From positions 1 through 46,840 of the IMG/VR virus record IMGVR_UViG_3300024346_000121: a DNA stretch of 46,840 nt; one strand, 5' to 3'. The stretch is from a virus. The position numbers and the translations under genes were made by a program. The notes under the pieces were generated by a model, which did no database searches, had not been told where the DNA came from, and saw only the letters and a program-made list of their open reading frames with translations. Below are positions 42,739 through 46,840 of this stretch, in pieces (position 1 is the stretch's first letter; each line of letters opens with the position of its first letter).

Positions 42739-43221
42739 TCAACGCTCAATAGTTACTCTGAAATCTACAGCATCTAGTTCAGATCTTACTGCACTGATAA
42801 CGTGTTCACTTATATCATCTTGTACAGCCCTAAGTACAGTTCGCTCTATATCTTCAGGATCTATTTGATCTTGGTGTAAATGCTCCAACTCGTCTATTCT
42901 ATATTCAAGATCATTACACTGACCTACAGCATTTTCTGCTTCAGCTTGTGAATCATCTACACCATCAGCTAAATCATCTAGTCTGCTTTCTATAGCGTTT
43001 AATCTTTCATCATCTGATACAAGTACAGCATCATCAGACGACACTTCTTTAGCTTTTAATTTTAACTCTAAAAGCTCGCCCTCTAAACTTGAAATCCTTT
43101 TAGCGTTTGCCCCTTGTAAATATTCTAAATCGTCTATTCTACGTTTTACAAAAGCAATTTCTGTTTTGTTCATAATTCTAGTATCAATCCACGCTTCTAC
43201 TGCTTCAATTAAACTTTTCAT
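42739..43221 (-). CDS. Coiled-coil protein
   Basis: A 160-residue protein with long heptad-like helices (about 20-130: FVKRRIDDLEYLQGANAKRI, SSLEGELLELKLKAKEVSSD, ERLNAIESRLDDLADGVDDS). The N-terminal helix (KSLIEAVEAWIDTRI) resembles an oligomerisation or membrane-anchoring segment. It overlaps the previous gene by 4 bases. Function unknown. Confidence 0.7.
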   Translation of the reverse strand: MKSLIEAVEAWIDTRIMNKTEIAFVKRRIDDLEYLQGANAKRISSLEGELLELKLKAKEVSSDDAVLVSDDERLNAIESRLDDLADGVDDSQAEAENAVGQCNDLEYRIDELEHLHQDQIDPEDIERTVLRAVQDDISEHVISAVRSELDAVDFRVTIER

Positions 43222-43838
43222 TTTGTTTCTCCAGTTAAATAAGTATAATGAACTTCACTAACATGATTACCATCTTGCCACTTAGGTGACTTTGTAGCTA
43301 AAAAACTACACCAACTATTCCATAAATTCTCAGTACCATATTCATGGCACAACTCTATATAAGCTAGAATCTTTTTAGCATTTGCTTCTAAACCCTTGAT
43401 AGTCTTAGGGTTTTGAGATAACGAAAACGCTTTAGGATCTAAGTTATACATTTTAATATTGTGAACATCCATGCAACCAACCAACCCCGCTGTCAATTGA
43501 CAAGCAAATCCTGCTTTTGGCACTCCTAAACCATCAACTCTAAGAAATACTTTCATCAGAGACTGGGCTTTTTCAGTGTCGTTTTTCTTAGAATTTATAA
43601 CAGCCATCACCTGACTATACATTTTATGCTTGTGAGTCTGTAAGTATCTATAGGTTTTGCCTTTGTTACCCCACAAGAATTTACTGTCTGCTTTATTTTT
43701 TCTTACATCAGCAAGCTGATCTCCAACACCCAACCAGTTTTGCTGGATGCTAAGAACTACCATGAGTATGACATCTGCCATATTGTTTACTGATCTTTGT
43801 GCATACTGCTGACAATTAACTGCATGAACTTTGTACAT
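43218..43838 (-). CDS. HhH-GPD (DNA glycosylase)-like protein
   Basis: A 206-residue protein. DGLGVPKAGFACQL (about 102-115) followed by MDVHNI (123-128) resembles the helix-hairpin-helix and catalytic Asp of HhH-GPD glycosylases. K108 sits where endonuclease III has its catalytic Lys and D124 where it has Asp, 16 apart against 18 in EndoIII. I see no iron-sulfur loop. GAGGTGAT precedes ATG, and a promoter is 30-60 bases upstream. Base repair or discrimination of modified DNA are possible roles. Confidence 0.6.
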   Translation of the reverse strand: MYKVHAVNCQQYAQRSVNNMADVILMVVLSIQQNWLGVGDQLADVRKNKADSKFLWGNKGKTYRYLQTHKHKMYSQVMAVINSKKNDTEKAQSLMKVFLRVDGLGVPKAGFACQLTAGLVGCMDVHNIKMYNLDPKAFSLSQNPKTIKGLEANAKKILAYIELCHEYGTENLWNSWCSFLATKSPKWQDGNHVSEVHYTYLTGETK

Positions 43839-43853
43839 AAATCACCTCGTTTT

Positions 43854-43899
43854 GTTTTGACGTTTTCCAAGCTACAGAACCTCCGTTTTGCTGTCAACA
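43854..43899 (-). promoter_or_regulatory. Repeated early promoter element, copy 1
   Basis: Minus-strand TTGACA (43897-43892), 17-base spacer and TAGCTT (43874-43869). A 23-bp block (43854-43876) covering the -10 and start region is identical to 46270-46292, and GTTTTGC plus the -35 follow at the same distance (8 variable bases between). TTGAC/GTCAA ends give a dyad. It would drive the HhH-GPD-like gene and those after it. Confidence 0.7.
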
Positions 43900-43948
43900 C
43901 ATTTCCCTGCGATAGTAACCTTGTGAAATACACATACACATATAAACT

Positions 43949-44116: not shown

Positions 44117-44127
44117 AATATCTCTCC

Positions 44128-44151
44128 AAAAAAATGCCCTCCGAAGAGGGC
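44128..44151 (-). terminator. Intrinsic terminator with UUCG-type loop, copy 1
   Basis: On the minus strand GCCCTC, loop TTCG, GAGGGC, then ATTTTTTT. The T-run is followed at once by GGAG, the ribosome binding site of the next gene. It closes the transcript after the gene ending at 44170. Confidence 0.88.
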
Positions 44152-44169
44152 TAAGAGGGGTGATAAACT

Positions 44170-44548: not shown

Positions 44549-44560
44549 TGTCAAACCTCC

Positions 44561-44584
44561 AAAAAAACCCCCTCCGAAGAGGGG
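44561..44584 (-). terminator. Intrinsic terminator with UUCG-type loop, copy 2
   Basis: On the minus strand CCCCTC, loop TTCG, GAGGGG, then GG and seven T. The same layout as copy 1: T-run directly joined to GGAGG of the next gene. A second 7-bp stem (44620-44626 with 44639-44645) precedes it. Confidence 0.88.
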
Positions 44585-44660
44585 TAAAGGACTGCTAGGG
44601 GAAATTAGTTAATTTATTGAAGCCTACTACTAACGTAATAGGCTTTATAAATTTACTATA

Positions 44661-45728: not shown

Positions 45729-46217
45729 TTATTTAGCCGCTTGTAAGATTTCAAGCATTGCATCCAGTTTAGAATCAATGTCAGAGACTTTAGTCTCAAG
45801 TGCAGTAATTCTATTATCCATCTTTTTAGCTACGCTATTTTGAGCCGGAGCAGTTTTCTTGACAGCCTTTGGCTTTTTAGAATCTAAAGCCTCTTCAGCT
45901 TGCTGAACTGTCTGCTGTTTAGCTTTAGCTACTGGTTTAGCTTTAACTTTCTTAGCAGCCTTCGGCTTTTTAATCAGCTTCAAAATTTCCTTTGGAACAA
46001 GCTGATGCTCTCTGAAGTCAGTGACTTCGGCATGGGTCATGTAAGAATCTTGATCGCCATAGAATTTATTCAGAATGGCGTTAAACACTTTGGTCAAACC
46101 ATATCGCTCTGAAGGATTCTTGGCATGGATATTAGCAAAGTGACAAGCTACGCCATAGACTTGTTTAGCAGTAGCAATTTTGTTCGAGTCGATTTTTGCA
46201 AAATTAATGTGTGTCAT
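45729..46217 (-). CDS. First early protein: Lys/Ala-rich linker plus coiled coil
   Basis: A 162-residue protein from ATG 46217 (AGGTGAT 3-9 bases upstream); a longer frame to 46325 would run through the promoter. N-terminal 85 residues form a compact domain (KQVYGVACHFANIHAKNPSE, LTKVFNAILNKFYGDQDSYM), then an H1-like Lys/Ala linker (KKPKAAKKVKAKPVAKAKQQ), then a C-terminal coiled coil (MDNRITALETKVSDIDSKLD). As the first early gene it may bind DNA or reprogram the host. Confidence 0.72.
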   Translation of the reverse strand: MTHINFAKIDSNKIATAKQVYGVACHFANIHAKNPSERYGLTKVFNAILNKFYGDQDSYMTHAEVTDFREHQLVPKEILKLIKKPKAAKKVKAKPVAKAKQQTVQQAEEALDSKKPKAVKKTAPAQNSVAKKMDNRITALETKVSDIDSKLDAMLEILQAAK

Positions 46218-46269: not shown

Positions 46270-46315
46270 GTTTTGACGTTTTCCAAGCTACACAGATCTG
46301 GTTTTGCCGTCAACA
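46270..46315 (-). promoter_or_regulatory. Repeated early promoter element, copy 2
   Basis: Minus-strand TTGACG (46313-46308), 17-base spacer, TAGCTT (46290-46285). It shares a 23-bp identical block with 43854-43876 and the same -35 layout. It would start transcription near 46278, about 60 bases before the first early gene. Confidence 0.7.
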
Positions 46316-46413
46316 TCTTTTTCACGCACTCTTTTTCCTACGCATTATGCGTATTAAAACAGGTGAAAAAAGTAAAATTGCTCATTTCTGGGGTCAAAGT
46401 TCTTTAGGTGTTA

Positions 46414-46448
46414 GGAATATTATTCCCATGTATTAGGAATATCATTCC
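46414..46448. promoter_or_regulatory. Pair of 13-bp operator-like dyads, 22 bp apart
   Basis: TTAGGAATATTATTCC and TTAGGAATATCATTCC carry the same dyad GGAAT(A/-)...ATTCC with centres 22 bp apart, two helical turns. This is a classical layout for cooperative binding by a dimeric regulator or initiator. Confidence 0.55.
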
Positions 46449-46545
46449 GACCTGTGCAGGATTAGTCTATACCATAGACTGTATGTGTGTGAAGACTTTT
46501 AAAGTCTTTGAGGATGTAAAAATGGCTGGGTCTTTTTCGCCAATT

Positions 46546-46566
46546 CCTCCTTCGGAGGGTTGTTAG
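46546..46566 (+). terminator. Weak terminator-like hairpin
   Basis: CCTCC-TTC-GGAGG followed by GTTGTT on the plus strand. The tail is poor in T, so termination is uncertain. It resembles the CTTCGGAGG loops of the two early terminators, but lies in a gene-free region. Confidence 0.3.
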
Positions 46567-46592
46567 CTAAGAAATCTAGCAATCTGTTTAGA

Positions 46593-46840
46593 AGTATAAT
46601 CCTTAGATTATAAATTCTTGTAAGTCGTTGAAATCCTTGGAAGTCTCTATAGAAATTCTAAAGAATTTTAAAAGTCTCTAAAGTCTCTACAGTTTGGAAA
46701 CTAGATTATAAATCTATGGAGATCTCTCAAGTCTTTTAAAGACTTTATAGCGTGGGCGATAGAATCTATTGATTCTTTGGAAGTCTTTTAAAGACTTTAT
46801 GGGGCGGGCAGGTGACCATACCCCCACCCCCCTATATATA
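46593..46840. repeat. Right copy of 248-bp direct repeat
   Basis: This copy is identical to bases 1-248 except T46770 in place of G178. It runs exactly to the window end, as expected when a circular or terminally redundant molecule is linearised with overlap. The sequence alone cannot tell a packaged terminal repeat from an assembly overlap; the mismatch points to population variation or an error at a contig end. Confidence 0.95.

Follow-up and report, generated by a model that had tools for sequence, protein, structure and literature searches.

The window analysed here, a 46,840-nt stretch of DNA from an uncultured marine phage (IMG/VR record IMGVR_UViG_3300024346_000121), contains two copies of a 23-bp block, which we regard as the cores of two leftward sigma70-type promoters, probably switched together. 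The promoter assignment taken by itself is likely, with high confidence, and for common control through the conserved start-site element the chances appear about even. As judged from sequence comparison, the cassette to which the block belongs represents a family of sigma70-type promoters, specific to a phage lineage, in which the discriminator and an initial transcribed element are conserved.

The repeated block and its two gene units

The two copies (43854-43876 and 46270-46292) are identical over 23 bp, reading GTTTTGACGTTTTCCAAGCTACA on the plus strand, and each is followed on that strand by 8 variable bases, GTTTTGC, one further variable base and GTCAA, i.e., the -35 element seen from the minus strand. 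The first-pass annotation had described this arrangement, with the -35 at the same distance in both copies, and its description proved exact. Over 51 nt the copies share 80% identity. Outside the 248-bp terminal repeats, the block is the longest exact repeat of the window and the sole one of at least 23 nt. A search with its 20-nt core, allowing up to 3 mismatches, found only these two sites in the window (0.00 expected from 100 dinucleotide shuffles). Under a two-block profile, trained partly on these two window sites, the copies reached 63.1 and 50.8; no other independent site in the window scored above about 1, and 20 simulated windows peaked at 13.9. The terminal repeat itself is direct (1-248 and 46593-46840), which suggests a complete genome.

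The functional orientation of both copies is leftward: on the minus strand they have the layout TTGAC(A/G)-N17-TAGCTT-GGAAAACGTCAAAAC, upstream of a minus-strand gene in each case. Promoter B comprises the following minus-strand elements: (i) a box upstream of the -35, GCGTGAAAAAGATG (46314-46327), with a family consensus of about CGCACnnGAAAGnnG; (ii) a -35 hexamer TTGACG (46308-46313); (iii) after a 17-nt spacer, a -10 hexamer TAGCTT (46285-46290); and (iv) a predicted discriminator and initial transcribed element GGAAAACGTCAAAAC (46270-46284). It precedes gene B (minus strand, 45729-46217; 162 aa), the first gene of the leftward arm. Promoter A, likewise on the minus strand, has the box CGCAGGGAAATGTG (43898-43911), a -35 hexamer TTGACA (43892-43897), a 17-nt spacer, the -10 hexamer TAGCTT (43869-43874) and the same element GGAAAACGTCAAAAC (43854-43868), and precedes gene A (minus strand, 43218-43838; 206 aa). 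Upstream of promoter B lies a palindrome, ACGCATTATGCGT (46340-46352); in relatives, many of the B and A cassettes are likewise preceded by a palindrome, GCATWATGC.

The spacer length and the -35 hexamers, which are close to TTGACA, agree with sigma70 promoters; the -10 hexamer TAGCTT agrees with TATAAT at just 3 of 6 positions. An automatic promoter scan of the window listed neither cassette site; these last two observations count against the explanation favoured below. The GTTTTGC common to both copies belongs to the -35/-10 spacer, and most relatives do not conserve it.

The B unit is separated from the A unit by two similar terminator-like hairpins on the minus strand, CCCCTCTTCGGAGGGG-GTTTTTTT (44584-44569), located between the two promoters, and GCCCTCTTCGGAGGGC-ATTTTTTT (44151-44136). 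They lie within two 31-nt copies (44557-44587 and 44124-44154; 90%), each with a T tail on the minus strand, and a further promoter-like site with TTGACA follows closely downstream of the copy at 44557-44587, at 44554. Since the block is missing from the arm's remaining consensus promoters (-35 at 44554, 41475 and 39362), it is not general to the promoters of this phage.

The structural model of protein A (pLDDT 91.4) matches archaeal-type 8-oxoguanine DNA glycosylases (best Foldseek E 0.027), with a best Z of 13.2 and an rmsd of 2.6 over 163 residues, a Z that helical models can reach without kinship; an HhH/8-oxoguanine-DNA-glycosylase-like fold is predicted. Gene A, which had no match in Pfam and PHROG, contains a helix-hairpin-helix-like GLGxxKA motif, and weak homologues of it occur in Roseobacter, Paracoccus and Microcystis phages. 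In protein B, a basic linker joins a helical N-terminal domain to a long C-terminal helix, which is probably a coiled coil; the protein gave no significant family or fold match, the model used for the structure search being weak (pLDDT 69.5). In some B homologues (e.g., L125, L129 and L154, with L138 listed beside them) the basic linker carries the AT-hook-like sequence GRGRPKGSKNK.

Conservation of the cassette in related phages

Scanning IMG/VR with exact and degenerate patterns showed that dozens of contigs carry the cassette; further hits in coding or unrelated DNA, which lacked the upstream box, were judged by eye to be chance matches and set aside. The convincing non-coding cassettes with a readable first downstream gene numbered 13 before family A, 26 before family B and one before neither (L106). 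Common to the A and B cassettes are the -35-proximal box, TTGAC, a variable spacer, a varying -10 and the sequence kGAAAaCGTCAAA. Among 28 dereplicated cassettes, the pairwise identity was 0.89 in the -35, 0.36 in the spacer, 0.68 in the -10, 0.83 in the discriminator as well as in the initial transcribed bases, and 0.37 in the next ~20 nt, and A-11 was found in 26 and T-7 in all 28, part of this measured conservation (including A-11 and T-7) being imposed by the search patterns used. TTGAC is kept in nearly all relatives, at a distance from the -10 of 17-18 nt as a rule (one nt shorter in L004 and L087). The initial view of the block as covering the -10 and the initial transcribed region, beyond the hexamers alone, was the right one.

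Several phages have both copies, 1.3-2.4 kb apart. In one of these pairs (L001) the -10 is CACTAT in A and TAGCTT in B; the start-site element is kept while the -10 and the spacer differ. Compared with L022, L021 has lost the A cassette cleanly, 85 bp flanked by short AACG repeats being absent.

The sole pattern-free test of conservation used B homologues gathered by protein alone (63 of 78 examined, near-duplicates left out), the profile applied to them still being trained on overlapping sequences. In this set, 33 of the 63 homologues carry the cassette at a similar distance, down to 28-33% protein identity to the B protein of the window, and TTGAC is kept in all of these except L098. Seven keep the upstream box, mostly together with the -35, and have other sequence beyond (e.g., L264, L271 and L273), and the remaining 23 have no cassette within 400 nt. 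The expectation that the block would be conserved in relatives with these genes was therefore borne out in roughly one of two B homologues; the upstream region of the others is different. One phage (L207) encodes a B protein 90% identical to that of the window and lacks the B cassette, while its A copy has one. As the cassette is missing before about a third of the B homologues, L207 included, and before A in L021, it is replaceable, which counts against the favoured explanation.

The cassette-less B homologues that were inspected have arrays of long inverted repeats (hairpins) in its place. Such near-perfect arrays (e.g., TTAATTAAATAACTTAAAAAGAAGTCATTTATGACTTTTTAAGTTATTTAATTAA) precede gene B in L207, L209, L214, L216, L226, L233, L243, L245, L247 and L249, and single long inverted repeats precede gene A in L036-L068, phages without the promoter cassette there. 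In the window itself, the sequence preceding promoter B is also rich in hairpins, though weaker ones (46330-46840 and 1-330). In the B promoters of L264, L265, L266 and L271, which keep the box and the -35, CTTGATATGGCC replaces the GAAAACGTCAAA element.

The start-site element and a possible common control

In the explanation that we favour, host RNA polymerase with its primary sigma factor would read both leftward promoters, each offering a strong TTGAC -35, a free spacer of 17 bp, a weak -10 (TAGCTT) with A-11 and T-7, and a G-containing discriminator. The conserved sequence (kGAAAaCGTCAAA) would run about 8-9 bases into the expected RNA start. One promoter would serve gene B together with the small genes that follow, as far as the terminator at 44584-44569, and the other gene A and the genes behind it. 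The analysis shows the sequence, the geometry, the association with the two genes and the conservation; from these we infer that both promoters fire, and from gene position only that the units are 'early'. Because the box, the -35 and the start-site element are common to both promoters and have the same spatial arrangement, joint switching of the two is probable, the step concerned being start-site opening or promoter escape. The conservation from the discriminator to the initial transcribed bases may reflect a protein bound there or an influence of the sequence itself on how stable the open complex is and how the polymerase escapes; either the factor or the initiation property would be shared by the two promoters. 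Common regulation of the two units, as first proposed, is plausible since conservation does not stop at the -10 but continues into the initial transcribed bases. In summary, the cassette pair is real and conserved, and is best regarded as a phage early promoter pair, an already known kind, with a conserved start-site element.

A possible, more specific version of this explanation, rather than its opposite, is a promoter-operator, in which a phage or host protein would bind the asymmetric site GAAAACGTCAAA over the start site, perhaps together with the upstream GCATWATGC palindrome, and repress or activate both units. Conservation past the -10 exceeds the needs of sigma70, and the start-site element stays while the -10 and the spacer change, even within one phage (L001). 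Moreover, the element is block-replaced, with the -35 and the box kept, in L264, L271 and L273, as would be expected if a binding specificity had been swapped. However, a search for HTH_3 proteins and integrases in the window gave no match (gene B and many small early genes were without family, and a regulator from a family other than HTH_3 may be encoded), and the element is asymmetric. The first-pass annotation had taken the block for a likely promoter-operator cassette and its TTGAC/GTCAA ends for a dyad; geometry, orientation and the same two downstream genes in relatives speak for the promoter, but the dyad operator did not hold. Its arms are present as letters, at a distance of 31 bp, but they are not retained jointly: GTCAA is lost and TTGAC kept in the A copy of L015, in L109/L119 and in L264-L275, and the converse loss is seen in L098 (TTGAC gone, GTCAA kept). 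A still narrower proposal, rather unlikely in our judgement, is that an undescribed regulator encoded by the phage binds GAAAACGTCAAA and controls B and A together; the gene B product, with its basic linker, its probable coiled coil and the AT-hook-like sequence of some homologues, may be this regulator. If true, this protein would control its own gene and gene A in a large uncultured group of marine phages.

We consider it slightly less likely again that the element acts at the RNA level, the first 10-15 nt of both transcripts signalling antitermination, stability or translation. The element does coincide with the 5' end expected for both transcripts, and promoter B is followed by terminator-like hairpins. 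Nevertheless, the conservation takes in the discriminator, which is not expected in the transcript, nothing scored above the Rfam gathering threshold, and RNAalifold gave -0.85 kcal/mol over 15 B leaders, with 3 weak pairs, none of them compensatory. A leader hairpin noticed by eye in several B leaders (GCC-N6-GGC) was likewise unsupported by RNAalifold on the alignment.

It is very improbable that the identity of the copies merely records a recent duplication or gene conversion and that nothing but the hexamers is functional: the spacers of the two window copies do share GCAAAAC, but the same element stands before A and B in phages with strongly different spacers and B proteins, and this conservation in divergent relatives largely refutes such a reading. 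The least probable alternative is that a single-subunit phage RNA polymerase uses the block as its promoter. The block resembles such promoters in length and exactness, but these would not need TTGAC at a nearly fixed distance of 17-18 nt; no RNA polymerase match was obtained in the window, a weak argument as control genomes gave none either.

Relation to known phages and promoters

The nearest isolates are pelagiphages of the HTVC103P type, by terminase (64-67% identity to Pelagibacter phages HTVC103P, HTVC104P and HTVC115P) and by primase-helicase (44-47%). The HTVC103P-related 'group IV' of metagenomic genomes has 31.9-44.4% G+C and no cultured members (PMC8528129); with 35-42% G+C by 4-kb segments, the window would fit this group. 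Profile searches of the first 9-11.5 kb of HTVC103P, HTVC115P and the Roseobacter phages CRP-9 and CRP-1 found no cassette, and that of the ParKuw1 early region found nothing. A DNA search of known phages with the region and with the 90-nt cassette of a relative returned chance pieces only, and a search of the literature collection used here found no promoter analysis for these phages. Mimicry of a host promoter was also considered and rejected: bacterial and archaeal genomes totalling 257 billion bases contain the pattern TTGAC-N16-19-GTAGCTTnGAAAACG 6 times, in unrelated organisms, which by our own estimate is about chance.

The cassette makes early transcription control accessible by sequence in marine phages without a cultured representative bearing the element, and defines a promoter family associated with two gene families. 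Through its natural variants, in which the start-site element is lost, replaced or retained, the part played by the initial transcribed sequence can be tested.

Like the operators and stoperators of cluster A mycobacteriophages (PMC9283540), the element is a short, asymmetric, conserved site at an early promoter with proposed common control; unlike in those phages, there are only two sites per genome, both at start sites, and the window has no integrase match. With the sigma70-dependent early promoters of tailed phages and with alphaproteobacterial sigma70 promoters, the cassettes share the TTGAC -35, the spacer of about 17 nt, a -10 with A-11 and T-7, and the place before leftward gene blocks. 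T at -7 is absent from many alphaproteobacterial promoters (PMC8407463), in contrast to the cassettes, in which its retention in 28 of 28 is partly imposed by the search. A further difference from these sigma70 promoters is that the conservation of the cassette continues through the discriminator and the initial transcribed bases.
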